From contig CM022665.1 of assembly GCA_012295275.1 (NCBI GenBank), positions 79,471-143,470 of the forward strand: 64,000 nucleotides of DNA, in the 5' to 3' direction. A model generated the notes under the pieces. That model was not told the origin of the DNA, made no database searches, and worked only from the letters and a program-made list of their open reading frames with translations. Numbering within the stretch: the first letter of the stretch is position 1; the number at the start of each line of letters is the position of its first letter. The translations under genes and the position numbers were made by a program. This DNA is from Chrysomallon squamiferum (lineage: Eukaryota; Mollusca; Gastropoda; Neomphalida; Peltospiridae). Shown here one piece after another: positions 2,891-34,753 of the stretch.

Positions 2891-3069
2891 TTAACACAAG
2901 GAAGCTCGCACAATGGCTTGGATTATCTTTCTACAAAGTGGACATCTTCGCAGTCTGGGCGCACAATCTTCACAGCAACAAAGATGACCGCAGGGCAGGA
3001 AAACCATTCTGATCTTGTTTTCAAGACAAACTTTGCAGATGATTTCCTCATTATCATCCAGCAAGGAAT
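2891..3069 (-). CDS. IAP gene, terminal exon: RING finger
   Basis: This is the last coding exon of the minus-strand IAP gene. The acceptor is tttattag at 3070 and the TAA stop is at 2891-2893. In phase 1 it reads DSLLDDNEEIICKVCLENKI, then a C3HC4 RING: CKVC, PCGHLCCCEDC and CPLCRK, ending IIQAIVRASLC. The CxxC, CxH and CPxC ligands are all present. C-terminal RINGs of this type in IAPs act as E3 ubiquitin ligases for caspases or for the IAP itself. The phase (1) matches the donor of the previous exon at 3648, and the full reading from the large exon to this stop is 847 codons without a break. No ATG-initiated long ORF covers it because it is a short exon. Confidence 0.92.
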
Positions 3070-4994: not shown

Positions 4995-5072
4995 CTTCAG
5001 TTACATGGTCTGTGTTTCTTGTTGTTTCGATAAATTTGCCATTCTTTTCTTCAGAAACAATGAATTCATCAA
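4995..5072 (-). CDS. IAP gene, linker exon 2 (78 nt)
   Basis: A phase 1-1 exon with acceptor ttcatgtag and donor AAG|GTATATT. It reads VDEFIVSEEKNGKFIE, then TTRNTDHVTEG. It continues in frame from the exon at 5255-5333 and into 3648-3722. No domain is recognised; the peptide is acidic and polar. A decayed copy of this exon, with neighbouring intron, recurs far away at 39159 and 61657. Confidence 0.87.
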
Positions 5073-5254: not shown

Positions 5255-5333
5255 CTTGACGTGTTTTAATTCCAAGACGTTCAAATGTTGGTCGACAATC
5301 ATTTAAAATATCCATCACTTGGTCATAGTTAAT
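5255..5333 (-). CDS. IAP gene, linker exon 1 (79 nt)
   Basis: Acceptor ttttattttag and donor CAAG|GTAAGT. Entered in phase 0 from the BIR2 exon and left in phase 1, it reads INYDQVMDILNDC, then RPTFERLGIKTRQ. It looks helical and could be a remnant of the helical region that lies between BIR and RING in many IAPs, but I do not see a clear UBA motif. It is the only exon downstream of the large exon that changes phase from 0 to 1, so it is obligatory for reaching the RING in frame. Confidence 0.88.
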
Positions 5334-5626: not shown

Positions 5627-5805
5627 CTCCTCTTCATTTTCATTCATTTCTTGAACCAAATCGACAAAACTGTCTCCCTTCACTTGTCTGATGAAATCAC
5701 ACTGTGGAAACCATCTGGCGTGTTCCACGTAAGGGTTATCTCCCTGCATCCAATTTCTAAGTCCTCCGCCGCAGTAAAAGCAGGACGTGCTATCACGTGA
5801 ATTAC
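5627..5805 (-). CDS. IAP gene, BIR2 second exon (179 nt)
   Basis: The exon starts after acceptor cacag at 5806 and ends EEE before donor GTAACT. Spliced to the large exon it completes BIR2: [26 protein letters not shown], then [18 protein letters not shown]. The zinc ligands C-x2-C-x16-H-x6-C are all present and the GGGL and HARWFP signatures are typical of caspase-binding type II BIRs. An acidic tail follows ([11 protein letters not shown]). A reading that starts from an ATG inside the preceding intron, giving MAWVSQ..., is an artefact of ignoring the splice site. A frameshifted duplicate lies at 1999-2176. Confidence 0.95.
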
Positions 5806-6124: not shown

Positions 6125-8077
6125 CAGAGAAGAAGAAACCGGCTTCTGCCAGTTCTGTCGGAGACTGGTTGTCAGGATGTGGCCATCGGTGTTCAAAAGA
6201 CGAAATACGTCGTTGTACGTCGACGTACTCGGAGTGACGTGGTACATGCAGTGTCGGGGCTGATATAGAGGAGCTTCCAGACAGAAAACCGGACAGCTGA
6301 AGGATTGGTAAATTACTGAAACTGAGCTGTGAAGAACTTTGATGAGAATCATTAGAGGCAACAGCACCACCACTGACAGAACTCTGACAGGTAAAAGAAG
6401 GAACTGTAGCGTTAACAGGAAGTGAAACAGCATTTGTAGCCATATCAATAGATGTAGATGAAAAAATTACTGTAGGCAAACCACCTGTGTTAACAGTAGA
6501 TGTAGATGTAACAGTGCTTGAGGGTATACTACAAATATTACCAGTAAATGTAGGCATACAGCTGGTATTAGTAGCTGATGCTACAGTACTAGTCAAACTA
6601 ACAGCAGATATGTCAATATTTTCATGACCAACAGAGGTAACGATGTCGTCGACGTTATTTCTTGGTGTTTCAGAGACTCCAAACAGTTCATTGTCATTAA
6701 CTGAACTTTCAGACTCGCTCCGATTACGAAGTGTGTCACTTTGAATAGCAGAAAATTCCAATACTGGTACAGATAATCTGCCCAGGAATTCTTGTAGTCT
6801 CTGCTCATCATTCTCACTTACCCAAATCGGCTCATTTTCTTCCTCTCCCAGGACAAATCTGCAGCTTGGTGAGATTTGTCTGTGAATTTCAATTGGCTTA
6901 TCTCCAGGTCTCCAGTGATCATAGCTCTGACCACAGCTGAAGCAGACAAGGCGATCACCAATCCCAGTGAAGTAGAATCCAGCAGCTGCAAGACGACTTG
7001 GCCAGGCTGAGGTTAGAGAAAATCCTAAGTAAGTCGCATATCGGTCCCACTCCCTCCTGTATCTGACAGTGTCTGAAGGTTCTGTCTCTAATTCATCATT
7101 TCTCGTCATTCCAGTTTGATTTCTCTGGTTACCAGGAACGGCTGATTCTGTTTCCGCGAAAACTTCCTGTTGCAGTTCATTCTCATCAGTGTTTTCATGT
7201 ATTATTTTGTTAGTTTCAACAACATTTGATTCTGTTAGGTCACTACTCAGCTGTTCCGATTGATTAGTATCAATATTTGTACCTTCTGATTCATTCACCT
7301 CAACAGTTGTATGTTCTGATTCACTGCTATGAATTCTTGCAATTTCTGATTCATGTCCATCAACTGCACCTTCTGCAATAATTATTGCAGCTTCTGGTTC
7401 ATTTATGTCAACTCCTGCAGCATATGATTCATTTCTATAAATGGCTGCACCTTCTGATACATTTCTATCAACTACTGCAGATTGTGATTCATTTGCAGCA
7501 GCAGTTTCATCGTCCGATTTATATCCGTCAGTTCTTTCAACTTCCGATTTATTTCTATGAATAGCTGCACATTTTGATTCAATTCCATCAATTACTGAAG
7601 CTTCTGGTTCATTTCTATCAATTCTTACAGCTTGTAATTCATTTCCATCCATGCTTGCAGCTTCTGATTCATTTCCATCAACAGCTGCAGCTCCTGAATC
7701 ACTTCCATCAACAGTTGCACCTTCTGATTCAGTTCCACGAACTGCACCTTCTGATTTACTTCCATCATTAGTTGCAGCTTCTGATTCATTTCCATGAATT
7801 TCTGCAGCTTCTGATTGATTTTCTTGAATACTTGTAGATTCTGATTTATTTAAACCAGGATATGCAACTTCTGATTCATGTCTATCAACAGTTGAATCTG
7901 TTGATTCATTTCTATCAGTTGTTGTAGTATCTGATCCATTTTCTTGAACAGTATCAGCTTCTGAACCCACTTCTTTCGAATCAGTTCCGTCTCTTTTTTC
8001 TGACTTTCTACCATTACTCACATTATTTGGATTAATCTCAAAACTGTTAAGAATGTTCGAATTCTTCACTTTTGAAT
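6125..8077 (-). CDS. IAP gene, large exon: acidic repeats, BIR1, spacer, start of BIR2
   Basis: This 1953-nt exon has acceptor gttccag at 8078 and donor CTG|GTTAGT. It is entered in phase 1, which matches every mini-exon upstream. An apparent start at 8067-8069 is a GTG, so the true start lies upstream. By residue from that point: about 25-270 is a degenerate 10-residue acidic repeat of the type AAVDGNESEA; about 335-410 is BIR1 (GFSLTSAWP, LAAAGFYFTG, CFSC, H and C with x16 and x6 spacing); about 430-605 is Ser/Thr-rich; about 610-649 begins BIR2 (RRISSFEHRWP, LAEAGFFFSG). BIR domains bind caspases or IAP antagonists. BIR1 lacks the GGGL motif of the second BIR, so the two probably differ in partners. 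It joins to 5627-5805. Confidence 0.95.
7280..7950 (-). repeat. 30-bp coding tandem repeat within the large IAP exon
   Basis: About 20 degenerate copies of a 30-base unit (plus strand ttctgattcatttccatcaa, then cagctgcagc) encode decapeptides of the form ESEAA-x-DGN. The frame is kept throughout; one shortened unit gives EAAIIIAEGA. Composition is Glu/Ser/Asp/Asn/Ala rich and predicted to be disordered. It suggests repeat-number change under frame constraint. Confidence 0.9.
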
Positions 8078-8833: not shown

Positions 8834-8893
8834 CTAAATCCTGAAAGATCCTCTTTATCATGTTCACCTGCTTATCACTTAGCTCTGTAAGCT
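8834..8893 (-). CDS. IAP gene mini-exon, 60 nt, second copy
   Basis: Acceptor tcttacag at 8894, donor TTTAG|GTACTT, phase 1-1. It reads ELTELSDKQVNMIKRIFQDL, which looks amphipathic helical. The nucleotide sequence is identical to 10189-10248. A second AG six bases into the exon (CTTACAG) could serve as an alternative acceptor, nine bases shorter and also frame-preserving. It is the last mini-exon before the large exon. Confidence 0.8.
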
Positions 8894-9574: not shown

Positions 9575-9643
9575 CTTTTTCTACTATATTTAAAGGTGAA
9601 CAAGTTTTGTGTAGATTGATTTCCATTACTTTATCGGTTAAAC
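9575..9643 (-). CDS. IAP gene mini-exon, 69 nt
   Basis: Acceptor ctgaaattacag at 9644, donor AAAAAG|GTATGT, phase 1-1. It reads GLTDKVMEINLHKTCSP, then LNIVEK. It lies between the two identical 60-nt exons. The matching position in the neighbouring duplicate unit (about 8265-8315) holds only a decayed counterpart without a donor. No domain is recognised. Confidence 0.8.
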
Positions 9644-10188: not shown

Positions 10189-10248
10189 CTAAATCCTGAA
10201 AGATCCTCTTTATCATGTTCACCTGCTTATCACTTAGCTCTGTAAGCT
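10189..10248 (-). CDS. IAP gene mini-exon, 60 nt, first copy
   Basis: Identical to 8834-8893, with the same acceptor, donor and phase. It reads ELTELSDKQVNMIKRIFQDL. Surrounding intron sequence is also duplicated, so the identity reflects recent duplication and is not by itself evidence of selection. Confidence 0.8.
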
Positions 10249-11480: not shown

Positions 11481-11633
11481 CTGAAAGTTTGATGTCTGTA
11501 AATGATAATGGTGCTGCAGTGTTGTACAGGTTTATCTTCAAATTTGATAATTTATTTTCCGTCAGCTGATATCTTTGTTCTGTAATACTCAATTCGACAA
11601 GGAGACAACGGAGTCTTTTGATATGAATTAATC
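11481..11633 (-). CDS. IAP gene mini-exon, 153 nt, with internal frame-preserving acceptor
   Basis: The longest mini-exon. The outer acceptor is ttttgcacag at 11634 and the donor is TTTCAG|GTAAAT. It reads GLIHIKRLRCLLVELSIT, then EQRYQLTENKLSNLK, then INLYNTAAPLSFTDIKLS. An internal acceptor (gtattacag at 11580) gives a 99-nt version that is also phase 1-1. Its two halves match two separate exons upstream: GLIHIKGIRCLLQEL (32932, 34295) and EQRDQLREMALSNF (34670). Here the intron between them is gone or retained as coding, so this is an exon fusion. Confidence 0.82.
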
Positions 11634-11914: not shown

Positions 11915-11953
11915 GGATAGTAGTCCAGTGATTCTGATTCATGAGAAATTTAT
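11915..11953 (-). CDS. IAP gene mini-exon, 39 nt
   Basis: Acceptor ctattttcag at 11954, donor ATCC|GTACGT, phase 1-1. It reads DKFLMNQNHWTTI. It ends in C rather than G, so the next codon starts with C; no stop can arise. Flanking introns match those of 12320-12358, 405 bp away, so the two exons are diverged tandem copies (D-x-F-L shared). Confidence 0.68.
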
Positions 11954-12319
11954 CTGAAAATAGAAATGTAGTTTCAGTAACATCAATAAAGATAAACTTT
12001 TCTAGCATTGTCAGAAATTTCCAATGCCTTTATATTGCAGTAAAATGTATTTACAACATTTCAGTAATATAAATCTGTAATACTAATACGAATGCTCATA
12101 TTTGTTTTCATTGATTTTCTTTCCTTACTGCAGGTTTTCACTTTGACACACTGATAAACATTTGTTGAGAAGATAATGAATACAACCGTATATGAGACTT
12201 AAATACCGATGTAAGTAAATAATTAGAGTTTAGCTTAAAATATCAAACTAACACCCGTTCACCAGAAACTAAGTTGATTCATCATAACTGCAAAAGAAAT
12301 TTAGGAAATAAGTACGTAC

Positions 12320-12358
12320 CATAATCTCTATAGTCTTCCTCTACGCCAAGAAATGGAT
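12320..12358 (-). CDS. IAP gene mini-exon, 39 nt
   Basis: Acceptor ctattttcag at 12359, donor TTATG|GTACGT, phase 1-1. It reads DPFLGVEEDYRDY. It is paired with 11915-11953; introns are shared but the exons have diverged strongly in sequence while keeping length and phase. Confidence 0.72.
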
Positions 12359-13664: not shown

Positions 13665-13727
13665 CTGAATTACACGTCTGTTTCACTGTTTTTGATTTGG
13701 AAATGGCTGTCAGCTTTCGTTGTACAC
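13665..13727 (-). CDS. IAP gene mini-exon, 63 nt, outlying member of the amplified family
   Basis: Acceptor ctgaaattacag at 13728, donor TTCAG|GTACAT, phase 1-1. It reads GVQRKLTAISKSKTVKQTC, then NS. It is a clear but diverged relative of the eleven array exons (TAISKS core kept) and probably older than the array. It lies 3' of the array in transcript order, just left of a Tigger insertion. Confidence 0.82.
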
Positions 13728-13862
13728 CTGTAATTTCAGTAACATAAATAAAGATAAACATTTCTAGCATAGTTGAGTATTATCACTGGTTTTTTATGCC
13801 AGTAAAAATTATGTACAACTTTTGACTAATATAAATCAGTAAAACTAATAAGAATGCTCATA

Positions 13863-14608
13863 CAGCGGTATTTCGAGTTACGAGTGCTCCAACTGACGAT
13901 TTTTTCGAGTTACGAGCAGCTGCCCGGTCGATTTTTTGCTTTCAGTTGCGAGCCAAAATCCGAGTTACGAGCGAGATTCAGATATGTCTCCGCTAGTTGG
14001 CGCAACGAACAACACAACATCCGCCGAGAATCCCGCGACTTACTCATTTACTTCACGTGGTTACCTAACCGTGGAAGCATTTCTGTTGTGTTGTACTCGC
14101 GTTTTGTGCAATATTTTGCCAAAGTTAGTGCAAAGGTCAGTGCTGAGACGAAGAAGCGGATGATGTCCATTGAATTAAAGTACGAAATCATAGAAAAGCA
14201 TGAGCGAGGTTTGCGTGTGGTCAACGTGGCTAGACAGTACATTATGTACCATACGATATGCACCATAATGAAGCAGAAGGAGTCGATAAAGGCTGTAAGT
14301 CCAGCCAAAGGCCTTAAAATAATTTCTAAGCTGAGGACCTCTGACCATGAAAAGATGGAGAAACGCTAACCCTGTCCACTTTCCAAAACCAATTTATTTC
14401 TTTACATTCTCTTTTATGTTGTTTTTATACAATATTTGTCATTTATACATACATTTTTTTATTTGGAGTGGTTTTCGGGGGTTGAGGCTGAAACGGATTA
14501 ATAGTATTTCAATTAATTTCATTTGGGGAAATTGATTTGATATACGAGCAGTTTGAGTTACCAGCTCGGTCACGGAACGAATTAAACTCGTAAGACAAGG
14601 CACCACTG
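13863..14608 (+). mobile_element. pogo/Tigger-type DNA transposon, internally deleted
   Basis: A 746-bp element flanked by TA dinucleotides (13861-13862 and 14609-14610), the usual Tc1/mariner superfamily target duplication. Terminal inverted repeats start CAGCGGTA-TTCGAGTTACGAG on the left and, read inward on the minus strand, CAGTGGTGCCTTGTCTTACG on the right. Inside, about 14160-14370 encodes the first helix-turn-helix (CENP-B N type) of the transposase: ELKYEIIEKHERGLRVVNVA, then a degenerate TICTIMKQKESIKA segment, then ISKLRTSDHEKMEK and a stop. The catalytic DDE domain is absent, so it is non-autonomous. It lies in an intron of the IAP gene, in the opposite orientation. Confidence 0.92.
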
Positions 14609-15090: not shown

Positions 15091-15150
15091 CTGCATACCT
15101 TGTATAACCCTGTTGATTGTCCGGACAATTAGTGATCAAGTTCCTTAACC
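15091..15150 (-). CDS. IAP gene mini-exon, 60 nt
   Basis: Acceptor gattttttcag at 15151, donor TGCAG|GTATTA, phase 1-1. It reads GLRNLITNCPDNQQGYTRYA. An internal GTATGC nine bases before the end is a possible alternative donor that would also preserve frame. No sequence relative is found in the window except a decayed stub near 16025-16040. Confidence 0.75.
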
Positions 15151-16345: not shown

Positions 16346-16396
16346 CTGCATTACCCAGGTGTTTCATCCAACTATTTACTGATCCATGTGTTGCAC
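16346..16396 (-). CDS. IAP gene mini-exon, 51 nt
   Basis: Acceptor ctgaaattacag at 16397, donor TGCAG|GTAAAT, phase 1-1. It reads GATHGSVNSWMKHLGNA. Acceptor context is the same as for the array exons, but the exon body is unrelated or very diverged. It is the first good exon on the 3' side of the array. Confidence 0.76.
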
Positions 16397-17137: not shown

Positions 17138-17224
17138 TTGAATTACTCCTGCGTTTCATTAATTCTAATACTTTACAACACTTCAGTGTCAATCGACTCT
17201 TTACAGAAACGTCTTTTTGTAGAT
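17138..17224 (-). pseudogene. Candidate mini-exon with a broken acceptor (87 nt)
   Basis: This sits where an array-type exon is expected. It starts DLQKDVS, continues open in phase 1 for 87 nt (a multiple of three) and ends RRSNS before donor TCAA|GTACAT. The acceptor reads attacAC instead of attacAG, so normal splicing would fail. It is longer than its relatives by 24 nt. An internal AG (TTCTGTAAAG) might give a shorter exon. I treat it as decayed. Confidence 0.5.
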
Positions 17225-18238
17225 GTGTAATTTCAGTAACATAAAAAAACAAAAACATTCATCGCATTGCCGAGTATAATTAGTAAATATTCATACTCAG
17301 TCTATATTAATACGTAAAATCAAAACACAAAAATAAAACGTCGTACCATCAGAAACGGAAGTAAAGTAACAACAATTTATAGGTTAATTATTACACACTT
17401 GGATAAATACATTCGTTGCAAATCATGTAGATAAGAATTATCTGTTCTGACTGTCACTGTGACACCTTTGTTTGCAATGTTGTAATATAAATCAAAGTTA
17501 ATTCTAGCGTAGTCTGACTGCGCGTTCTGCTAAATTGTAAACTACAAAGCTGTACTGAAAGTTTGTATGTTATTACTCATGTAAATGAAGCTTCTCATAA
17601 ATATCAACAATTCAAAGGCGATATTCAGTGCTAACATTAAGCAGCTACATCCACATGTCACTGCTGAATTAAAAACACTGTAAGATAAACATTTTCTATA
17701 AATTTCGAAAGATGTGAATGTATAATTAAGGTAATTTTAGGTATCAGAGTTGACTTGAAAACAAAATAGACAATGAAAAAGAAACCCTTAAGACTCCTCA
17801 AGTGAGACATCGTTCCAAAGCCCGATTTAGACAGTTGTGTTCTTCTTAAAAAGCTTAATTGCTGCTGAATTTACTGAGCTAGCAGTTTGATGTGATATCC
17901 TTCTGTTTATAAATTACAACTTATCAAACAAAATTTTGTGTTCTTTCATTACATCTGAGAAATCTTTAAACTAGGCATATTTACTAAAGACAACCTTATG
18001 CTTTTTATAATTTTATATGTATACAAAGTTCAGATTGTCTTCTCTACTAAAAACATAGAATAAACTATAAACGAAAGCCAAATGCTAAACATATGTATTA
18101 ATGGTGTTAATAATTAATTTTCACTAATGTAAGTAAATAATTAGATTTCTGTTTAAAGACAACAAAGTGGCACCCATACACAAGAATGTAATTTGCTTTA
18201 TCATAGCTAGAGAAGAAAGTTAACAAATAATTATGTAC

Positions 18239-18301
18239 CTGAATTAGACCTCTGTTCCACTCTTTCTGATTTGGAAATGGCTGTCGACTGTAGTTGTACT
18301 T
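18239..18301 (-). CDS. IAP array mini-exon, copy 11 (group A)
   Basis: 63 nt, acceptor aaattacag, donor TTCAG|GTACAT, phase 1-1. It reads EVQLQSTAISKSERVEQRS, then NS. The most 3' member of the array in transcript order. It starts with Glu (AAG after the junction) rather than the Asp of group B. Confidence 0.85.
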
Positions 18302-19592
18302 CTGTAATTTAAGTAACGGAAATAAAGTTAAATATTTCTAGCATAGCTGAGTAGTATCAATGGCTATTTATGCCAGTAAACATTATATACCACTTTTCAC
18401 TAATATAAATCACTAAACTAATACGAATTTTCATATTTGTTTTGCTTGTTTCTCTTTCTTAGCTGGATGTTTTCACTTCGACAACCTCATAAACATTTCC
18501 TGGGAAGACAGTGAATACTAACCCATGTGAGACTGTAAAAACTGCTGTCTTTAAAAGTTTTTGTGTTGTTAGTTACAGCTTACTAAATGTTTCACCGAAA
18601 AGTGCGAAAACCACTTTGTAACAAAGATATACTTCTAAACGTTTTCTAGAAGTATTTAGTAACTACTCATAAGTAGTCAATATTAATACGTAAAATCAAA
18701 CATCAGACACTGAAGTAAAGTAACAACAATTTATAGGTTAATTATTACACACTTGGATAAATATATTCGTTGCAAATCATGTAGATAAGAATTATCTGTT
18801 CTGACTGTCACTGTGACACCTCTGTTTGCAATGTTGTAATGGAAATCAAAGTTAATTCTAGCGTAGTCTGACTGCGCGTTCTGCTAAATTGTAAACTACA
18901 AAGCTGTACTGAAAGTTTGTATGTTATTACTCATGTAAATGAAGCTTCTCATAAATATCAACAATTCAAAGGCGATATTCAGTCCTGACATTAAGCAGCT
19001 ACATCCACATGTCACTGCTGAATTAAAAACACTGTAAGATATACATTTTCTATAAATTTCGAAAGATGTGAATGTATAATTAAGGTAATTTTAGGTATCA
19101 GAGTTGACTTGAAAAGAAAATAGACAATGAAAAAGAAACCCTTAAGACTCCTCAAGTGAGACATCGTTCCAAAGCCCGATTTAGACAGTTGTGTTCTTCT
19201 TAAAAAGCTTAATTGCTGCTGAATTTACTGAGCTAGCAGTTTGATGTGATATCCTTCTGTTTATAAATTACAACTTATCAAACAAAATTTTGTGTTCTTT
19301 CATTACATCTGAGAAATCTTTAAACTAGGCATATTTACTAAAGACAACCTTATGTTTTTCATAATTTTATATGTATACAAAGTTCAGATTGTCTTCTCTA
19401 CTAAAAACATAGAATAAACTATAAACGAAAGCCAAATGCTAAACATATGCATTAATGGTGTTAATAATTAATTTTGACTAATATATGCAAATAATTAGAT
19501 TTCTGTTTAAAGACAACAAAGTGGCACCCATACACAAGAATGTAATTTGCTTTATCATAGCTAGAGAAGAAAGTTAACAAATAATTATGTAC

Positions 19593-19655
19593 CTGAATTA
19601 GACCTCTGTTCCACTCTTTCTGATTTGGAAATGGCTGTCGACTGTAGTTGTACTT
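19593..19655 (-). CDS. IAP array mini-exon, copy 10 (group A)
   Basis: Same 63-nt sequence, splice sites and phase as 18239-18301, offset 1354 bp. It reads EVQLQSTAISKSERVEQRS, then NS. Confidence 0.85.
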
Positions 19656-20948
19656 CTGTAATTTAAGTAACGTAAATAAAGTTAAATATTTCTAGCATAG
19701 CTGAGTAGTATCAATGGCTATTTATGCCAGTAAACATTATATACCACTTTTCACTAATATAAATCACTAAACTAATACGAATTTTCATATTTGTTTTGCT
19801 TGTTTCTCTTTCTTAGCTGGATGTTTTCACTTCGACAACCTCATAAACATTTCCTGGGAAGACAGTGAATACTAACCCATGTGAGACTGTAAAAACTGCT
19901 GTCTTTAAAAGTTTTTGTGTTGTTAGTTACAGCTTACTAAATGTTTCACCGAAAAAGTGCGAAAACCACTTTGTAACAAAGATATACTTCTAAACGTTTT
20001 CTAGAAGTATTTAGTAACTACTCATAAGTAGTCAATATTAATACGTAAAATCAAACATCAGACACTGAAGTAAAGTAACAACAATTTATAGGTTAATTAT
20101 TACACACTTGGATAAATATATTCGTTGCAAATCATGTAGATAAGAATTATCTGTTCTGACTGTCACTGTGACACCTCTGTTTGCAATGTTGTAATGGAAA
20201 TCAAAGTTAATTCTAGCGTAGTCTGACTGCGCGTTCTGCTAAATTGTAAACTACAAGGCTGTACTCAAAGATTTTATATTATTACTCATGTAAATGAAGC
20301 TTCTCATAAATATCAACAATTCAAAGGCGATATTCAGTGCTGACATTAAGCAGCTACATCCACATGTCACTGCTGAATTAAAAACACTGTAAGATATACA
20401 TTTTCTATAAATTTCGAAAGACGTGAATGTATAATTAAGGTAATTTTAGGTATCAGAGTTGACTTGAAAACAAAATAGAAAGTGAAAAAGAAACCCTTAA
20501 GACTCCTCAAGTGAGACATCGTTCCAAAGCCCGATTTAGACAGTTGTGTTCTTCTTAAAAAGCTTAATTGCTGCTGAATTTACTGAGCTAGCAGTTTGAT
20601 GTGATGTCCTTCTGTTTATAAATTACAACTTATCAAACAAAATTTTGTGTTCTTTCATTACATCTGAGAAATCTTTAAACTAGGCATATTAACTAAAGAC
20701 AACCTTATGTTTTTTTATAATTTTATATGTATACAAAGTTCAGATTGTCTTCTCTACTAAAAACATAGAATAAACTATAAACGAAAGCCAAATGCTAAAC
20801 ATATGTATTAATGGTGTTAATAATTAATTTTCACTAATGTAAGTAAATAATTAGATTTCTGTTTAAAGACAACAAAGTGGCACCCATACACAAGAATGTA
20901 ATTTGCTTTATCATAGCTAGAGAAGAAAGTTAACAAATAATTATGTAC

Positions 20949-21011
20949 CTGAATTAGACCTCTGTTCCACTCTTTCTGATTTGGAAATGGCTGTCGACTG
21001 TAGTTGTACTT
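20949..21011 (-). CDS. IAP array mini-exon, copy 9 (group A)
   Basis: Same sequence and phase as the neighbouring group A exons, offset 1356 bp. Both splice sites are intact. Confidence 0.85.
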
Positions 21012-22306
21012 CTGTAATTTAAGTAACGGAAATAAAGTTAAATATTTCTAGCATAGCTGAGTAGTATCAATGGCTATTTATGCCAGTAAACATTATATAC
21101 CACTTTTCACTAATATAAATCACTAAACTAATACGAATTTTCATATTTGTTTTGCTTGTTTCTCTTTCTTAGCTGGATGTTTTCACTTCGACAACCTCAT
21201 AAACATTTCCTGGGAAGACAGTGAATACTAACCCATGTGAGACTGTAAAAACTGCTGTCTTTAAAAGTTTTTGTGTTGTTAGTTACAGCTTACTAAATGT
21301 TTCACCGAAAAAGTGCGAAAACCACTTTGTAACAAAGATATACTTCTAAACGTTTTCTAGAAGTATTTAGTAACTACTCATAAGTAGTCAATATTAATAC
21401 GTAAAATCAAACATCAGACACTGAAGTAAAGTAACAACAATTTATAGGTTAATTATTACACAGTTGGATAAATATATTCGTTGCAAATCATGTAGATAAG
21501 AATTATCTGTTCTGACTGTCACTGTGACACCTCTGTTTGCAATGTTGTAATGGAAATCAAAGTTAATTCTAGCGTAGTTTGACTGCGCGTTCTGCTAAAT
21601 TGTAAACTACAAAGCTGTACTGAAAGTTTGTATGTTATTACTCATGTAAATGAAGCTTCTCATAAATATCAACAATTCAAAGGCGATATTCAGTGCTGAC
21701 ATTAAGCAGCTACATCCACATGTCACTGCTGAATTAAAAACACTGTAAGATATACATTTTCTATAAATTTCGAAAGATGTGAATGTATAATTAAGGTAAT
21801 TTTAGGTATCAGAGTTGACTTGAAAACAAAATAGACAATGAAAAAGAAACCCTTAAGACTCCTCAAGTGAGACATCGTTCCAAAGCCCGATTTAGACAGT
21901 TGTGTTCTTCTTCTTAAAAGCTTAATTGCTGCTGAATTTACTGAGCTAGCAGTTTGATGTGATATCCTTCTGTTTATAAATTACAACTTATCAAACAAAA
22001 TTTTGTGTTCTTTCATTACATCTGAGAAAAATCTTAAACTAGGCATATTTACTAAAGACAACCTTATGCTTTTTATAATTTTATATGTATACAAAGTTCA
22101 GATTGTCTTCTCTACTAAAAACATAGAATAAACTATAAACGAAAGCCAAATGCTAAACATATGCATTAATGGTGTTAATAATTAATTTTGACTAATATAT
22201 GCAAATAATTAGATTTCTGTTTAAAGACAACAAAGTGGCACCCATACACAAGAATGTAATTTGCTTTATCATAGCTAGAGAAGAAAGTTAACAAATAATT
22301 ATGTAC

Positions 22307-22369
22307 CTGAATTAGACCTCTGTTCCACTCTTTCTGATTTGGAAATGGCTGTCGACTGTAGTTGTACTT
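22307..22369 (-). CDS. IAP array mini-exon, copy 8 (group A)
   Basis: Same 63-nt exon, beginning Glu-Val-Gln-Leu-Gln. The unit on its right carries an extra few tens of bases (a partial duplication of ctagaagtat) near 22720-22740 that is shared with later units, showing the order of changes in the array. Confidence 0.85.
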
Positions 22370-23680
22370 CTGTAATTTAAGTAACGTAAATAAAGTTAAA
22401 TATTTCTAGCATACCTGAGTAGTATCAATGGCTATTTATGCCAGTAAACATTATATACCACTTTTCACTAATATAAATCACTAAACTAATACGAATTTTC
22501 ATATTTGTTTTGCTTGTTTCTCTTTCTTAGCTGGATGTTTTCACTTCGACAACCTCATAAACATTTCCTGGGAAGACAGTGAATACTAACCCATGTGAGA
22601 CTGTAAAAACTGCTGTCTTTAAAAGTTTTTGTGTTGTTAGTTACAGCTTACTAAATGTTTCACCGAAAAAGTGCGAAAACAACTTTGTAACAAAGATATA
22701 CTTCTAAACGTTTTCTAGAAGTATGTACCTAACTAGAAGTATTTAGTAACTACTAATACATAGTCAATATTAATACGTAAAATCAAACATCAGACATGGA
22801 AGTAAAGTAACAACAATTTATAGGTTAATTATTACACAGTTGGATAAATATATTCGTTGCAAATCATGTAGATAAGAATTATCTGTTCTGACTGTCACTG
22901 TGACACCTCTGTTTGCAATGTTGTAATGGAAATCAAAGTTAATTCTAGCGTAGTTTGACTGCGCGTTCTGCTAAATTGTAAACTACAAAGCTGTACTGAA
23001 AGTTTGTATGTTATTACTCATGTAAATGAAGCTTCTCATAAATATCAACAATTCAAAGGCGATATTCAGTGCTGACATTAAGCAGCTACATCCACATGTC
23101 ACTGCTGAATTAAAAACACTGTAAGATATACATTTTCTATAAATTTCGAAAGATGTGAATGTATAATTAAGGTAATTTTAGGTATCAGAGTTGACTTGAA
23201 AACAAAATAGACAATGAAAAAGAAACCCTTAAGACTCCTCAAGTGAGACATCGTTCCAAAGCCCGATTTAGACAGTTGTGTTCTTCTTAAAAAGCTTAAT
23301 TGCTGCTGAATTTACTGAGCTAGCAGTTTGATGTGATATCCTTCTGTTTATAAATTACAACTTATCAAACAAAATTTTGTGTTCTTTCATTACATCTGAG
23401 AAAAATTTTAAACTAGGCATATTAACTAAAGACAACCTTATGTTTTTTATAATTTTATATGTATACAAAGTTCAGATTGTCTTCTCTACTAAAAACATAG
23501 AATAAACTATAAACGAAAGCCAAATGCTAAACATATGTATTAATGGTGTTAATAATTAATTTTGACTAATATAAGTAAATAATTAGATTTCTGTTTAAAG
23601 ACAACAAAGTGGCACCCATACACAAGAATGTAATTTGCTTTATCATAGCTAGAAAAGAAAGTTAACAAATAATTATGTAC

Positions 23681-23743
23681 CTGAATTAGACCTCTGTTCC
23701 ACTCTTTCTGATTTGGAAATGGCTGTCGACTGTAGTTGTACAT
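23681..23743 (-). CDS. IAP array mini-exon, copy 7 (group A, intermediate)
   Basis: It reads DVQLQSTAISKSERVEQRS, then NS. The body is group A but the first residue is Asp, as in group B, so it is intermediate between the two groups. Splice sites and phase are intact. The same bases read from the ATG in the wrong frame run through the donor into the intron, which is why a spurious 64-residue ORF appears here. Confidence 0.85.
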
Positions 23744-25054
23744 CTGTAATTTAAGTAACGTAAATAAAGATTAAATATTTCTAGCATAGCTGAGTAGTAT
23801 CAATGGCTATTTATGCCAGTAAACATTATATACCACTTTTCACTAATATAAATCACTAAACTAATACGAATTTTCATATTTGTTTTGCTTGTTTCTCTTT
23901 CTTAGCTGGATGTTTTCACTTCGACAACCTCATAAAACATTTCCTGGGAAGACAGTGAATACTAACCCATGTGAGACTGTAAAACTGCTGTCTTTAAAAA
24001 AAAAGACAATTTGTGTTGTTAGTTACAGCTTACTAAATGTTTCACCGAAAAAGTGCGAAAACCACTTTGTAACAAAGATATACTTCTAAACGTTTTCTAG
24101 AAGTATTTAACTAGAAGTAACTTACTAACTACTCATACGTAGTCAATATTAATACGTAAAATCAAACATCAGACATGGAAGTAAAGTAACAACAATTTAT
24201 AGGTTTATTATAACCTGGATAAATACATTCGTTGCAAATCATGTAGATAAGAATTATCTCTTCAGTCTGTCACTATGACATCTCTGTTTGGAATGTTGTA
24301 ATGTAAATCAAAGTTAATTCTAGTGTAGTCTGACTGCGCGTTCTGCTAAACTGTAAACTACAAAGCTGTATTGAAAGTTTGTATATTATTACTCATGTAA
24401 ATGAAGCTTGTCATAAATATCAACAATTCAAAGGCGATATTCAGTGCTGACATTAAGCAGCTACATTCACATGCCACTGCTGAATTAAAAACACTGTAAG
24501 ATATACATTTACTATCAATTTCGAAACATGTGAATGTATAATTAAGGTAATTTTAGGTATCAGAGTTGACTTGAAAACAAAATAGACAATGAAAAACAAA
24601 CCCTTAAGACTCCTCAACTGAGACATCGTTCCAAAGCCCGATTTGGACAGTTGTGTTCTTCTTAAAAAGCTTAATTGCTGCTGAATTTTCTGAGCTAGCA
24701 GTTTGATGTTATATCCTTCTGTTTATAAATTACAACTTATCAAACAAAATTTTGTGTTCTTTCATTACATCTGAGAAAACTTTAAACCAAGCATATTAAC
24801 TAAAGACCATCTTATGATTTTTATAATTTTATATGTATACATAGTTCCGATTGTCTTCTCTATTAATAATATAGAGTAAACTATAAACGAAAGCCAAATG
24901 CTAAACATATGTATTAATTGTGTTAATAATTAATTTTGACTAATATATGCAAATAATTAGATTTCTGTTTAAAGACAACAAATTGGCACCCATGCACAAG
25001 AATGTAATTTGCTTTATCATAGCTAGAAAAGAAAGTTAACAAGTAATTATGTAC

Positions 25055-25117
25055 CTGAATTACACCTCTGTTCCACTCTTTCTGATTTGGAAATGGCTGT
25101 CGGCTGTCGTTGTACAT
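25055..25117 (-). CDS. IAP array mini-exon, copy 6 (group B)
   Basis: It reads DVQRQPTAISKSERVEQRC, then NS; acceptor aaattacag, donor TTCAG|GTACAT, phase 1-1. First unit of group B, with CGA and CCG codons in place of CTA and TCG and TGT in place of TCT. All these differences change the amino acid. Confidence 0.86.
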
Positions 25118-26422
25118 CTGTAATTTAAGTAACGTAAATAAAGATAAACATTTCTAGCATAGTTGAGTAGTATCAACGGCTATTTATGCCAGTAAAAATT
25201 ATATACCACTTTTCACTAATATAAATCACTAAACTAATACGAATTTTCATATTTGTTTTGCTTGTTTCTCTTTCTTAGCTGGATGTTTTCACTTCGACAA
25301 CCTCATAAACATTTCCTGGGAAGACAGTGAATACTACCCCATGTGAGACTGTAAAAACTGCTGTCTTTAAAAGATTTTGTGTTGTTAGTTACAGCTTACT
25401 AAATGTTTCACCGAAAAAGTGCGAAAACCACTTTGTAACAAAATATACTTCTAAACGTTTTCTAGAAGTATCTACCTAACTAGAAGTATTTACTAACTAC
25501 TCATACGTAGTCAATATTAATACGTAAAATCAAACATCAGACATGGAAGTAAAGTAACAACAATTTATAGGTTTATTATAACCTGGATAAATACATTCGT
25601 TGCAAATCATGTAGAAAAGAATTATCTCTTCAGTCTGTCACTATGACATCTCTGTTTGGAATGTTGTAATGTAAATCAAAGTTAATTCTAGTGTAGTCTG
25701 ACTGCGCGTTCTGCTAAACTGTAAACTACAAAGCTGTATTGAAAGTTTGTATATTATTACTCATGTAAATGAAGCTTGTCATAAATATCAACAATTCAAA
25801 GGCGATATTCAGTGCTGACATTAAGCAGCTACATTCACATGCCACTGCTGAATTAAAAACACTGTAAGATATACATTTACTATCAATTTCGAAACATGTG
25901 AATGTATAATTAAGGTAATTTTAGGTATCAGAGTTGACTTGAAAACAAAATAGACAATGAAAAAGAAACCCTTAAGACTCCTCAACTGAGACATCGTTCC
26001 AAAGCCCGATTTGGACAGTTGTGTTCTTCTTAAAAAGCTTAATTGCTGCTGAATTTACTGAGCTAGCAGTTTGATGTGATATCCTTCTGTTTATAAATTA
26101 CAACTTATCAAACAAAATTTTGTGTTCTTTCATTACGTCTGAGAAAACTTTAAACCAAGCATATTAACTAAATACCATCTTATGATTTTTATAATTTTAT
26201 ATGTATACATAGTTCCGATTGTCTTCTCTATTAATAATATAGAATAAACTACAAACGAAAGCCAAATGCTAAACATATGTATTAATTGTGTTAATAATTA
26301 ATTTTGACTAATATATGCAAATTATTAGATTTCTGTTTAAAGACAACAAATTGGCACCCATGCACAAGAATGTAATTTGCTTTATCATAGCTAGAAAAGA
26401 AAGTTAACAAGTAATTATGTAC

Positions 26423-26485
26423 CTGAATTACACCTCTGTTCCACTCTTTCTGATTTGGAAATGGCTGTCGGCTGTCGTTGTACAT
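26423..26485 (-). CDS. IAP array mini-exon, copy 5 (group B)
   Basis: Identical exon to 25055-25117, offset 1368 bp, with intact splice sites. Confidence 0.86.
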
Positions 26486-27790
26486 CTGTAATTTAAGTAA
26501 CGTAAATAAAGATAAACATTTCTAGCATAGTTGAGTAGTATCAACGGCTATTTAAGCCAGTACAAATTATATACCACTTTTCACTAATATAAATCACTAA
26601 ACTAATACGAATTTTCATATTTGTTTTGCTTGTTTCTCTTTCTTAGCTGGATGTTTTCACTTCGACAACCTCATAAACATTTCCTGGGAAGACAGTGAAT
26701 ACTACCCCATGTGAGACTGTAAAAACTGCTGTCTTTAAAAGTTTTTCTGTTGTTAGTTACAGCTTACTAAATGTTTCACCGAAAAAGTGCGAAAACCACT
26801 TTGTAACAAAGATATACTTCTAAACGTTTTCTAGAAGTATCTACCTAACTAGAAGTATTTACTAACTACTCATACGTAGTCAATATTAATACGTAAAATC
26901 AAACATCAGACATGGAAGTAAAGTAACAACAATTTATAGGTTTATTATAACCTGGATAAATACATTCGTTGCAAATCATGTAGATAAGAATTATCTCTTC
27001 AGTCTGTCACTATGACATCTCTGTTTGGAATGTTGTAATGTAAATCAAAGTTAATTCTAGTGTAGTCTGACTGCGCGTTCTGCTAAACTGTAAACTACAA
27101 AGCTGTATTGAAAGTTTGTATATTATTACTCATGTAAATGAAGCTTGTCATAAATATCAACAATTCAAAGGCGATATTCAGTGCTGACATTAAGCAGCTA
27201 CATTCACATGCCACTGCTGAATTAAAAACACTGTAAGATATACATTTACTATCAATTTCCAAACATGTGAATGTATAATTAAGGTAATTTTAGGTATCAG
27301 AGTTGACTTGAAAACAAAATAGACAATGAAAAAAAACCCTTAAGACTCCTCAACTGAGACATCGTTCCAAAGCCCGATTTGGACAGTTGTGTTCTTCTTA
27401 AAAAGCTTAATTGCTGCTGAATTTACTGAGCTAGCAGTTTGATGTGATATCCTTCTGTTTATAAATTACAACTTATCAAACAAAATTTTGTGTTCTTTCA
27501 TTACATCTGAGAAAACTTTAAACCAAGCATATTAACTAAATACCATCTTATGATTTTTATAATTTTATATGTATACATAGTTCCGATTGTCTTCTCTATT
27601 AATAATATAGAATAAACTATAAACGAAAGCCAAATGCTAAACATATGTATTAATTGTGTTAATAATTAATTTTGACTAATATATGCAAATTATTAGATTT
27701 CTGTTTAAAGACAACAAATTGGCACCCATGCACAAGAATGTAATTTGCTTTATCATAGCTAGAAAAGAAAGTTAACAAGTAATTATGTAC

Positions 27791-27853
27791 CTGAATTACA
27801 CCTCTGTTCCACTCTTTCTGATTTGGAAATGGCTGTCGGCTGTCGTTGTACAT
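27791..27853 (-). CDS. IAP array mini-exon, copy 4 (group B)
   Basis: Identical exon to the other group B members, offset 1368 bp, with intact splice sites. Confidence 0.86.
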
Positions 27854-29159
27854 CTGTAATTTAAGTAACGTAAATAAAGATAAACATTTCTAGCATAGTT
27901 GAGTAGTATCAACGGCTATTTATGCCAGTAAAAATTATATACCACTTTTCACTAATATAAATCACTAAACTAATACGAATTTTCATATTTGTTTTGCTTG
28001 TTTCTCTTTCTTAGCTGGATGTTTTCACTTCGACAACCTCATAAACATTTCCTGGGAAGACAGTGAATACTACCCCATGTGAGACTGTAAAAACTGCTGT
28101 CTTTAAAAGTTTTTGTGTTGTTAGTTACAGCTTACTAAATGTTTCACCGAAAAAGTGCGAAAACCACTTTGTAACAAAGATATACTTCTAAACGTTTTCT
28201 AGAAGTATCTACCTAACTAGAAGTATTTACTAACTACTCATACGTAGTCAATATTAATACGTAAAATCAAACATCAGACATGGAAGTAAAGTAACAACAA
28301 TTTATAGGTTTATTATAACCTGGATAAATACATTCGTTGCAAATCATGTAGATAAGAATTATCTCTTCAGTCTGTCACTATGACATCTCTGTTTGGAATG
28401 TTGTAATGTAAATCAAAGTTAATTCTAGTGTAGTCTGACTGCGCGTTCTGCTAAACTGTAAACTACAAAGCTGTATTGAAAGTTTGTATATTATTACTCA
28501 TGTAAATGAAGCTTGTCATAAATATCAACAATTCAAAGGCGATATTCAGTGCTGACATTAAGCAGCTACATTCACATGCCACTGCTGAATTAAAAACACT
28601 GTAAGATATACATTTACTATCAATTTCCAAACATGTGAATGTATAATTAAGGTAATTTTAGGTATCAGAGTTGACTTGAAAACAAAATAGACAATGAAAA
28701 AGAAACCCTTAAGACTCCTCAACTGAGACATCGTTCCAAAGCCCGATTTGGACAGTTGTGTTCTTCTTAAAAAGCTTAATTGCTGCTGAATTTACTGAGC
28801 TAGCAGTTTGATGTGATATCCTTCTGTTTATAAATTACAACTTATCAAACAAAATTTTGTGTTCTTTCATTACATCTGAGAAAACTTTAAACCAAGCATA
28901 TTAACTAAATACCATCTTATGATTTTTATAATTTTATATGTATACATAGATCCGATTGTCTTCTCTATTAATAATATAGAATAAACTATAAACGAAAGCC
29001 AAATGCTAAACATATGTATTAATTGTGTTAATAATTAATTTTGACTAATATATGCAAATAATTAGATTTCTGTTTAAAGACAACAAATTGGCACCCATGC
29101 ACAAGAATGTAATTTGCTTTATCATAGCTAGAAAAGAAAGTTAACAAGTAATTATGTAC

Positions 29160-29222
29160 CTGAATTACACCTCTGTTCCACTCTTTCTGATTTGGAAATG
29201 GCTGTCGGCTGTCGTTGTACAT
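29160..29222 (-). CDS. IAP array mini-exon, copy 3 (group B)
   Basis: Identical exon, offset 1369 bp, with intact splice sites. Confidence 0.86.
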
Positions 29223-30529
29223 CTGTAATTTAAGTAACGTAAATAAAGATAAACATTTCTAGCATAGTTGAGTAGTATCAACGGCTATTTATGCCATTAA
29301 AAATTATATACCACTTTTCACTAATATAAATCACTAAACTAATACGAATTTTCATATTTGTTTTGCTTGTTTCTCTTTCTTAGCTGGATGTTTTCACTTC
29401 GACAACCTCATAAACATTTCCTGGGAAGACAGTGAATACTACCCCATGTGAGACTGTAAAAACTGCTGTCTTTAAAAGTCTTTGTGTTGTTAGTTACAGC
29501 TTACTAAATGTTTCACCGAAAAAGTGCGAAAACCACTTTGTAACAAAGATATACTTCTAAACGTTTTCTAGAAGTATCTACCTAACTAGAAGTATTTACT
29601 AACTACTCATACGTAGTCAATATTAATACGTAAAATCAAACATCAGACATGGAAGTAAAGTAACAACAATTTATAGGTTTATTATAACCTGGAATAAATA
29701 CATTCGTTGCAAATCATGTAGATAAGAATTATCTCTTCAGTCTGTCACTATGACATCTCTGTTTGGAATGTTGTAATATAAATCAAAGTTAATTCTAGTG
29801 TAGTCTGACTGCGCCTTCTGCTAAACTGTAAACTACAAAGCTGTATTGAAAGTTTGTATATTATTACTCATGTAAATGAAGCTTGTCATAAATATCAACA
29901 ATTCAAAGGCGATATTCAGTGCTGACATTAAGCAGCTACATTCACATGCCACTGCTGAATTAAAAACACTGTAAGATATACATTTACTATCAATTTCCAA
30001 ACATGTGAATTCATAGTTAAGGTAATTTTAGGTATCAGAGTTGACTTGAAAACAAAATAGACAATGAAAAAGAAACCCTTAAGACTCCTCAACTGAGACA
30101 TCGTTCCAAAGCCCGATTTGGACAGTTGTGTTCTTCTTAAAAAGCTTAATTGCTGCTGAATTTACTGAGCTAGCAGTTTGATGTGATATCCTTCTGTTTA
30201 TAAATTACAACTTATCAAACAAAATTTTGTGTTCTTTCATTACATCTGAGAAAACTTTAAACCAAGCATATTAACTAAAGACCATCTTATGATTTTTATA
30301 ATTTTATATGTATACATAGATCCGATTGTCTTCTCTATTAATAATATAGAATAAACTATAAACGAAAGCCAAATGCTAAACATATGTATTAATTGTGTTA
30401 ATAATTAATTTTGACTAATATATGCAAATAATTAGATTTCTGTTTAAAGACAACAAATTGGCACCCATGCACAAGAATGTAATTTGCTTTATCATAGCTA
30501 GAAAAGAAAGTTAACAAGTAATTATGTAC

Positions 30530-30592
30530 CTGAATTACACCTCTGTTCCACTCTTTCTGATTTGGAAATGGCTGTCGGCTGTCGTTGTACAT
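30530..30592 (-). CDS. IAP array mini-exon, copy 2 (group B)
   Basis: Identical exon, offset 1370 bp, with intact splice sites. Confidence 0.86.
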
Positions 30593-31890
30593 CTGTAATT
30601 TAAGTAACGTAAATAAAGATAAACATTTCTAGCATAGTTGAGTAGTATCAACGGCTATTTATGCCAGTAAAAATTATATACCACTTTTCACTAATATAAA
30701 TCACTAAACTAATACGAATTTTCATATTTGTTTTGCTTGTTTCTCTTTCTTAGCTGGATGTTTTCACTTCGACAACCTCATAAACATTTCCTGGGAAGAC
30801 AGTGAATACTACCCCATGTGAGACTGTAAAAACTGCTGTCTTTAAAAGTCTTTGTGTTGTTAGTTACAGCTTACTAAATGTTTCACCGAAAAAGTGCGAA
30901 AATCACTTTGTAACAAAGATATACTTCTAAACGTTTTCTAGATGTATCTACCTAACTAGAAATATTTACTAACTACTCATACTTAGTCAATATTAATACG
31001 TAAAATCAAACATCAGACATGGAAGTAAAGTAACAACAATTTATAGGTTTATTATAACCTGGATAAATACATTCGTTGCAAATCATGTAGATAAGAATTA
31101 TCTCTTCAGTCTGTCACTATGACATCTCTGTTTGGAATGTTGTAATATAAATCAAAGTTAATTCTAGTGTAGTCTGACTGCGCGTTCTGCTAAACTGTAA
31201 ACTACAAAGCTGTATTGAAAGTTTGTATATTATTACTCATGTAAATGAAGCTTGTCATAAATATCAACAATTCAAAGGCGATATTCAGTGCTGACATTAA
31301 GCAGCTACATCCACATGTCACTGCTGAATTAAAAACACTGTAAGATATACATTTCTATCAATTTCGAAATGTATAATTAAGGTAATTTTAGGTATCAGAG
31401 TTGACTTGAAAACAAAATAGACAATGAAAAAGAAACCCTTAAGACTCCTCAACTGAGACATCGTTCCAAAGCCCGATTTGGACAGTTGTGTTCTTCTTAA
31501 AAAGCTTAATTGCTGCTGAATTTACTGAGCTAGCAGTTTGATGTGATATCCTTCTGTTTATAAATTACAACTTATCAAACAAAATTTTGTGTTCTTTCAT
31601 TACATCTGAGAAAACTTTAAACTAAGCATATTAAATAACAATACTATTATGCCTTTAATAATTTTATATGTATATAAAGTTCAGATTCCCTTGTCTCTAT
31701 TAATAAAATAGAATAAACTATAAACGAAAGACAAATGCTAAAGATATGTATTGATGGTGTTAATAATTAATTTTCACTAATGTAAGTAAATAATTAGGTT
31801 TCTGTTTAAAACAACAAAGTGACACCCGTGCACAAGAATGTAATTTGCTTTATCGTAGCTAGAAAAGAAAGTTAACAAGTAATTATGTAC

Positions 31891-31953
31891 CTGAATTACA
31901 CCTCTGTTCCACTCTTTCTGATTTGGAAATGGCTGTCGGCTGTCGTTGTACAT
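31891..31953 (-). CDS. IAP array mini-exon, copy 1 (group B, most 5')
   Basis: The exon is identical to other group B copies, but the acceptor context is tactgaaattacag, as in the older single exons (13665, 16346), while other array copies have tacttaaattacag. The intron next to it is also the older type. This unit therefore lies at the edge of the amplified block and may be closest to the founder. Confidence 0.86.
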
Positions 31954-32608
31954 CTGTAATTTCAGTAACGTAGATAAAGATAAACATTTCTAGCATAGTT
32001 GAGTAGTATCAACGGCTATTTATGCCAGTAAAAATTATATACCACTTTTCACTAATATAAATCACTAAACTAATACGAATGTTCATATTTGTTTTTCTTG
32101 ATTTTCTTTCTTAGCTGGATGTTTTAACTTTGACAAACTAATAAACATTTTTTGAGAAGACAATGACTACTACCCCACATGAGACTTTAAAGACTGCTGT
32201 CTTTAAAAAAATGTTGTGCTGTTAGTTACAGCTTAATAAATGTTTCAGCGAAAAAGTGAGAAAACCTCTTTGTAACAAAGATATACTTCTAAACGTTTTC
32301 TAGAAGTATCTAACTGACCAGAAGTATTTACTAACTACTCATACGTAGTCAATATTAATACGTAAAATCAAAACACAAACATAAAACGTCGTACCATCAG
32401 ACATGGAAGTAAAGTAACAACAATTTATGGGTTAATTATTACACACTTGGATAAATATATTCGTTGGAAATCACGTAGATAAGAATTATCGGTTCAGTCT
32501 GTCACTAACACGTTTGTCCTGAGATCATCAGTTTATAGATTACAACTTATCAACAAAATGCTGTGTACTTTCATTACCGCTGAGAAATCATAAAACCAAC
32601 AAATTTAC

Positions 32609-32686
32609 CTGAACGACATTCGTGGATAATTCCATTGACACTTTCAAAGCCGTTATTCAACAGGAAATTCCGTCTTAATGTTTCTT
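32609..32686 (-). CDS. IAP gene mini-exon, 78 nt, second copy
   Basis: Acceptor catattacag at 32687, donor TTCAG|GTAAAT, phase 1-1. It reads EETLRRNFLLNNGFESVN, then GIIHECRS. It differs from 33972-34049 at two codons (Leu/Ser and Leu/Val), both amino-acid changing. It is joined upstream to the 45-nt exon at 32932 and downstream to the array. Confidence 0.83.
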
Positions 32687-33971: not shown

Positions 33972-34049
33972 CTGAACGACATTCGTGGATAATTCCATTG
34001 ACACTTTCAAAGCCGTTATTCAACACGAAATTCCGTCTTGATGTTTCTT
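33972..34049 (-). CDS. IAP gene mini-exon, 78 nt, first copy
   Basis: Acceptor catattacag at 34050, donor TTCAG|GTAAAT, phase 1-1. It reads EETSRRNFVLNNGFESVN, then GIIHECRS. Paired with 32609-32686. Confidence 0.83.
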
Positions 34050-34669: not shown

Positions 34670-34753
34670 CTGAATAATTTGAGTTTATAAAGAGTTGTGG
34701 GTTGTTGTTGTTAAAGTTTGATAATGCCATTTCCCTCAGTTGATCTCTTTGTT
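34670..34753 (-). CDS. IAP gene, most 5' coding mini-exon found, with candidate start codon
   Basis: Acceptor catattacag at 34754, donor TTCAG|GTAAAT, phase 1-1, 84 nt. It reads EQRDQLREMALSNFNNNNPQ, then LFINSNYS. An in-frame ATG at 34728-34730 has G at -3 and G at +4, a good initiation context. No coding exon in this phase is visible further upstream, where the sequence changes to the promoter-like array. I infer that translation starts here, with the preceding part of the exon as 5' untranslated. Homologous to the 3' part of exon 11481-11633. Confidence 0.75.

Follow-up and report, generated by a model that had tools for sequence, protein, structure and literature searches.

We analysed a 64,000-nucleotide stretch of the Chrysomallon squamiferum contig CM022665.1 (C1:79471-143470, hereafter the window), in which the minus strand carries a gene of the IAP (BIRC) family with eleven tandem copies of a 63-nt exon. 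Coordinates are window positions unless preceded by C1, which denotes the contig, and the assembly searched comprised 404.6 Mb in 22 contigs. The eleven exon copies span 18239-31953 at a spacing of 1354-1374 bp and lie at 31891-31953, 30530-30592, 29160-29222, 27791-27853, 26423-26485, 25055-25117, 23681-23743, 22307-22369, 20949-21011, 19593-19655, and 18239-18301. Every copy is preceded by ttacag and followed by gtacat (AG/GT borders), and all eleven are symmetric phase 1-1 exons that are open and match the frame of the BIR exon. The spacing, borders, and phase were those described in the original prediction, and the frame joined from the array exons into the BIR exon was open, as it had also anticipated. 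Only three exon sequences occur among the eleven copies (EVQLQSTAISKSERVEQRSNS in four, DVQLQSTAISKSERVEQRSNS in one, and DVQRQPTAISKSERVEQRCNS in six), and the three encoded peptides differ at four sites. The copies are thus near-identical as predicted, but the 63-nt unit consists of two main sequence types and not of the single 21-residue unit first proposed.

The duplicated object is the whole unit of ~1.36 kb, mostly intron, and not the exon alone; because this whole unit is tandemly duplicated, the array is not a chance arrangement. Self-alignment of 17347-32507 at successive lags gave identities falling from 97.4% to 89.9%. Units were 98.0-99.6% identical within a type, the single intermediate unit (23681) was 95.9-97.7% identical to those types, and the outermost 5′ unit (31891) reached 90.5-92.4% against the remaining units. 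This gradient, with the outermost 5′ unit the most diverged, is the usual mark of unequal crossing-over and suggests that the array grew in this way. Three units of the adjacent gene were 99.0-99.7% identical to the best-matching window unit, which suggests that units moved between genes recently. Downstream of the array, self-alignment and the exon scan described below detected a diverged but intact twelfth 63-nt copy (13665-13727, minus strand; GVQRKLTAISKSKTVKQTCNS). A degenerate copy at 17138-17224 on the same strand, matched by nhmmer at C1:96583-96747, no longer has the acceptor AG or the G ahead of the donor GT, and five further 63-nt copies were found in the neighbouring gene.

A nanopore assembly could misstate the copy number or homogenise copies during polishing. 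The published assembly is described in the available text as nanopore-based and Illumina-polished (PMC7142155), and near-identical repeats are difficult to polish. The eleven units are nevertheless distinguishable, with pairwise identities of 90.5-99.6%, and the sole N run of the window (200 bases, 45820-46019) lies outside the array. Several arrays with different exons were found, each of which would require a separate error, and we regard an assembly artefact as very unlikely.

Gene model and flanking exons

The joined minus-strand model contains 29 predicted exons and encodes 1330 residues from the first methionine, with a single stop at the end. It runs from an 84-nt ATG exon through 22 tract exons to a 1953-nt BIR exon, an exon with the second half of BIR2, three linkers, and a RING exon. 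The large exon (6125..8077, entered in phase 1) encodes acidic Ser/Glu-rich repeats, BIR1 (Pfam E 7.4e-24), and the first half of BIR2. The second BIR domain spans the predicted splice junction (Pfam E 1.7e-22) and is completed in the exon at 5627..5805. The joined frame continues through linker exons at 5255-5333, 4995-5072, and 3648-3722 into the terminal RING exon (2891..3069), which ends in ...VRASLC and the stop. The C-terminal RING finger, as in XIAP/cIAP-type members, matched PF13920 (E 9.1e-14; genome match C1:82385-82513). By its predicted BIR and RING domains the gene belongs to the IAP (BIRC) family, as originally proposed, with a putative ligase or caspase-related function. Within the large exon, a 30/60-bp tandem repeat at 7386-7917 encodes acidic Ser/Glu/Ala units. 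Downstream of the RING stop, a truncated duplicate of the second half of BIR2 is accompanied by a piece of the preceding exon (2062-2157 and about 2570-2600).

The 22 consecutive symmetric phase 1-1 exons measure, in nt, 78, 78, 63 (eleven times), 51, 60, 63, 39, 39, 99, 60, 69, and 60, and the tract ahead of the BIR exon amounts to 483 residues with the start exon included. All lie on the minus strand. Upstream of the array, the exon scan placed 78-nt exons at 33972..34049 (EETSRRNFVLNNGFESVNGIIHECRS) and 32609..32686 (EETLRRNFLLNNGFESVNGIIHECRS); downstream, it placed a 51-nt exon at 16346..16396 (GATHGSVNSWMKHLGNA) and a 60-nt candidate with a weaker splice score at 15091..15150 (GLRNLITNCPDNQQGYTRYA). 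The two 39-nt exons (12320-12358 and 11915-11953), recognised by eye and missed by the scan, sit in a 405-bp tandem duplication (11915..12358). They are followed by a 99-nt exon at 11481..11579 (EQRYQLTENKLSNLKINLYNTAAPLSFTDIKLS), a relative of the exon amplified in a gene at C1:745 kb, and by scanned exons of 60 nt (10189-10248), 69 nt (9575-9643), and 60 nt (8834-8893), which are relatives of the exon pair amplified in paralogue 4. The weak exon at 15091, the by-eye assignment of the 39-nt exons, and several omitted exon-like stretches leave the exact count of tract exons uncertain. These flanking symmetric exons go beyond the original prediction, as do the paralogues with other amplified exons and the greater divergence of exon than intron in one of them.

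The 84-nt exon with an in-frame ATG (34670..34753, minus strand; MALSNFNNNNPQLFINSNYS) was the most upstream exon candidate for the window gene in the scan and is likely its first coding exon, since a 113-nt ATG exon that resembles it by eye, and likewise ends in phase 1, precedes the array of paralogue 4. No hydrophobic run was seen by eye in this predicted start exon. Further upstream, 37500-64000 holds no convincing exons and is a nest of degenerate direct repeats with a main period of ~3.8 kb (best long pair 93.6% identical), which also occur upstream of the paralogues. In C1:114230-157000, which includes 35-64 kb of the window, coding exons were represented by one weak phase 1-1 candidate (59274) and ATG-to-donor frames by weak candidates only, and the region was treated as non-coding. 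A short hydrophobic ATG frame, MFVNSI(I/M)FFLLA(I/V)QSRQVYLYHF(L/V)H, with a moderate phase 0 donor, recurs with the 3.8-kb unit at C1:128642, 132425, and 143585 (window 49172, 52955, and 64115) and at C1:201064, 204960, and 268562, upstream of genes 1, 2, and 4. It resembles a signal-peptide-type start, but the phase in which it ends is at odds with that of the tract. On the plus strand, a 179-aa frame at 13830-14369 adjoins the diverged 63-nt copy, in a stretch with a GC content of 43.5% against 28.2% for the window; it may be a mobile-element fragment.

Coding signals and paralogous arrays

We scanned the window for phase 1-1 exons using a weight matrix derived from ten exon sequences of the window gene. 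Counting overlapping alternatives, the scan gave 23 minus-strand candidates and none on the plus strand, while one-strand scans of five Markov surrogates of the window gave 0, 0, 0, 0, and 2; the comparison is partly circular because the matrix was trained on the gene's own exons. Looser cut-offs yielded 27 minus-strand candidates and one on the plus strand, the former comprising 21 model exons, two overlapping alternatives, three sites inside the large exon, and the site at 59274.

A second test was anchored on the intron flanks and ignored exon content (acceptor of family I, ttcatattacag); the anchors missed some known copies, so that its counts are not a census. In family I, an acceptor was present at 21 sites. 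At 18 of these the exon was a multiple of three long and free of stops; two of the 18 had a doubtful donor, and six were identical copies within one array. The three exceptions were one lost acceptor and two 113-nt ATG exons ending in phase 1. Four more family I anchor matches lay inside 63-nt units with no acceptor nearby. All nine sites with an acceptor were in frame in family II, which had one further site lacking it, as were both sites in family III. Among the close 63-nt copies in two genes, 17 of 18 kept phase, splice sites, and frame, the eighteenth being the relic; the 17 include two copies with units no more than 71-78% identical to the others.

Homology searches identified no relative of the tract: Pfam gave nothing above cut-off on the 483 residues. 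With the entire large exon as query, a protein search yielded four proteins, its candidate list probably crowded by repeat words. The lack of a protein homologue in these searches would fit transcription of the array for an RNA role, as a circular RNA, a long non-coding RNA, or a small RNA source. Such a role is scarcely credible given the open, phase-consistent frame that runs into the BIR and RING exons and the nonsynonymous bias described below; the window also gave no Rfam match above the gathering score, and no non-coding RNA or tRNA was found in it.

We surveyed neighbouring genes in C1:1-293470, C1:744001-754000, and C1:49160001-49180000. Paralogous IAP genes within ~0.8 Mb have amplified different symmetric exons, of 63, 78, 60+81, and 99 nt. 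Gene 2 (BIR near C1:157.8 kb) holds five copies of a 63-nt exon and seven of a 78-nt exon; in gene 4 (BIR near C1:250 kb), seven copies of a 60-nt exon mostly alternate with six of an 81-nt exon. The plus-strand gene at C1:745 kb contains six copies of a 99-nt exon within the 10 kb surveyed. A DNA search with the window unit gave at least 72 matches, of which 71 fell within C1:71.7-801.5 kb and one at C1:21.5 Mb.

Other repeats were seen on the same contig. In one paralogue (C1:286800-291779), an open frame of 1660 aa abounds in EQLRSDE-type repeats, and the contig end (C1:1-21500) carries satellite-like repeats with long open frames; the telomere motif was not found in the first 300 bases of C1. 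At C1:49163702-49207655, the exon encoding the second half of BIR is arrayed in tandem at ~1580 bp, and the six copies examined were identical in the compared part. By analogy with the window, this exon would run from phase 1 to 0, so that its repeated inclusion would break the frame, unlike that of the symmetric exons.

Divergence of exons and introns

Exon-confined divergence was evident in gene 2, whose 78-nt units fall into types A and B. Three units of each type, with the seventh unit left out, showed 18 fixed differences at 78 exon sites and 19 at 1682 sites outside (Fisher p 5e-16 for the exon excess), and no 78-site span outside the exon held more than four. In one A-B pair, differences amounted to 21.5 of 60.8 nonsynonymous sites and 1.5 of 17.2 synonymous sites. 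When a type A unit was compared with the 69-nt unit at C1:185160, 1169 of 1200 flanking positions and 50 of 69 aligned exon bases were identical; the exon match is near the shuffled baseline of 0.71, and the exon lengths differ by a multiple of three. In gene 2, units can share introns about 97% identical and yet hold exons that barely align. Types A and B also differ at synonymous sites more than the introns do, which points to one-step exon replacement or to introns homogenised by gene conversion while the exons escaped. A donor for the type B exon was sought in C1:1-293470, and none was closer than the exon's own relatives.

Among 11 chosen family I exons, mean identity was 0.75 in exons and 0.87 in flanks, with the exon lower in 49 of 55 pairs. 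Seven distinct exons of the 63-nt family, pooled, gave nonsynonymous and synonymous proportions (pN and pS) of 0.107 and 0.013, the pairs not being independent. Running counter to an exon excess, the 60-nt exon of gene 4 was on average less variable than its flanks (0.048 vs 0.107). The window array is by itself too uniform to reveal exon-confined divergence.

Interpretation and relation to known systems

Taken together, the array probably belongs to the coding region of an intact IAP ubiquitin-ligase gene, most likely of a vent snail, and would contribute to an N-terminal tract that varies in length, is spliced cumulatively, and has expanded by unequal crossing-over. A ~1.36-kb unit with one symmetric 63-nt exon has been amplified in tandem, probably through unequal crossing-over, which together with gene conversion may keep the copies alike. 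Symmetric phase 1-1 exons could be gained, lost, skipped, or repeated with the downstream frame untouched, so that the unit could be amplified at no cost to the BIR/RING part. Since every tract exon is phase 1-1 and any number can be spliced, cumulative inclusion appears the most likely mode, and for near-identical copies the inclusion of several or all would be the simplest outcome. Full inclusion would give up to 11 x 21 = 231 repeat residues within the 483-residue tract, the length that the original prediction had envisaged.

That prediction also allowed for mutually exclusive splicing. Regulated choice of one exon per transcript, as in Dscam, would be in keeping with homologous tandem exons that have near-identical flanks, and the 78-nt array of gene 2 does encode two clearly different peptide types. 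In the window array, a choice among eleven copies would yield just three peptides, differing at four sites, and the symmetric phase imposes no frame penalty on multiple inclusion; we therefore consider mutually exclusive or otherwise regulated splicing of this kind improbable here.

Several observations count against a coding, selected tract. Its coding role is predicted from the genomic sequence of one assembly, from which the array copy number is also taken, and a 287-residue composite of the exons had no protein match at E<=10 among 3070 candidates. The gene model was picked for openness, and exon-like stretches kept out of the joined frame include the 17.1-kb relic and those near 33.3 kb (in-frame stop), 8.3 kb (donor unclear), and 4.8 kb (degenerate). 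At C1:63118, the large exon has a near copy with no tract. Gene 2, where exon divergence is clearest, has a large exon that is frame-broken as assembled: its open stretches, of 453, 245, and 202 residues, lie in three different frames, and the gene may be a pseudogene or its assembled sequence may contain sequencing errors. In the window array taken by itself, 4 of 63 exon sites and 42 of 1262 outside were variable (Fisher p 0.27), and the nonsynonymous nature of all four exon changes was not significant (p 0.35). Across 17 aligned 63-nt units, the exon was the less variable part (13 of 63 columns, against 586 of 1450 in introns).

The absence of excess change in the window array exon would be expected if neutral tandem duplication near a chromosome end, in a repeat-rich IAP cluster, had carried the exon as a passenger whose inclusion is inconsequential. 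The duplication of whole, chiefly intronic units fits this account, as do the other tandem repeats in which the cluster is rich, among them the 3.8-kb units at 37-64 kb that hold no convincing exon, and the peptide-identical arrays of the 99-nt exon and the BIR half-exon elsewhere on the chromosome. Passenger exons would not readily explain the integrity of 17 of the 18 close 63-nt copies, the 18 of 21 flank-anchored family I sites in frame, or a divergence confined to the exon in gene 2, and we find neutral duplication rather unlikely.

Paralogues amplify different exons, and at least one exon family diverges, chiefly by nonsynonymous change or by exchange of the whole exon, while its introns remain similar; selection therefore probably favours change in both the sequence and the length of the predicted coding tract. 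We would guess that it serves as a variable binding surface that brings targets, e.g., symbiont or pathogen factors, to the BIR/RING ligase. This recognition role is suggested by the kind of protein and by the way in which the tract changes, and is the least certain element of the proposal.

In the available text on the hard clam (PMC7831173) and oyster (PMC8917759), IAP (BIRC) families expanded by whole-gene duplication, retroposition, and domain shuffling. The genes described there resemble the window gene in encoding clustered BIR and RING proteins with tandem whole-gene duplicates, and hard clam IAPs likewise have a BIR over two exons and the RING in the last exon; unlike for the window gene, the available parts of these papers mention no micro-exon array or N-terminal micro-exon tract (PMC7831173, PMC8917759). 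The assembly yielded no COX1 sequence. Its HSP70 is 91% identical over the full length to three Gigantopelta aegis records and one further record, and among the best 120 of 7991 listed matches the others that cover at least 94% of it reach at most 81%. IAP is listed among the expanded families of Gigantopelta in the text available (PMC7895826), and the word apoptosis is absent from the main text, as available, of the scaly-foot snail paper (PMC7142155).

Schistosome micro-exon genes (MEGs), as described in the portions available, share numerous short symmetric exons whose skipping leaves the frame unchanged, rapid divergence, and a proposed origin by exon duplication and shuffling (PMC5825161). 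Their exons measure 6-36 bp, make up ~80% of the coding region, and encode secreted or membrane proteins (PMC5825161), whereas the tract exons here measure 39-99 nt and, together with the start exon, contribute 483 of 1330 residues to a BIR/RING protein. The aphid bicycle and megacycle genes are similarly reported, in the text available, to have many small exons of one phase and fast evolution, with internal tandem duplication in megacycle (PMC9168663). In bicycle genes, almost all internal exons are phase 2, and the products are putative effectors (PMC9168663), whereas all 22 tract exons are phase 1 and the window gene is an IAP. The window gene works like a micro-exon gene and is a member of neither the MEG nor the bicycle family.

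The diversity of the sea urchin Sp185/333 genes lies in elements within a large exon and not in amplified exons. Like the IAP cluster, they form a repeat-rich, unstable, and diversified immune gene family, according to the sections available (PMC5103432). In Dscam, too, homologous exons are arrayed in tandem within a single gene, given in the available text as mutually exclusive alternatives (PMC1397879), whereas the window copies are almost identical and symmetric, with three peptides among eleven copies.

Precedents exist for tandem exon arrays, for micro-exon genes, and for expanded IAP families. The literature searched, to the extent of the texts available, gave no IAP ligase with an amplifiable symmetric-exon tract in a cluster whose sister genes amplify different exons and in which some exons diverge between similar introns, in agreement with the original remark that no IAP described with such an array was known. 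We tentatively raise, as a doubtful but possible extension, that the IAP cluster on C1 is a germline exon-diversification system in which units are recombined and amplified, introns homogenised, and exons replaced or driven apart. If so, the recognition tract of each IAP ligase would be rapidly renewable and variable in length, an intracellular parallel to the variable immune receptors known in invertebrates. The cluster would also offer a natural case for telling gene conversion from selection at the scale of exons, and the gene is a candidate variable intracellular immune or symbiosis factor, in an endosymbiont-dependent animal if the source is the scaly-foot snail.

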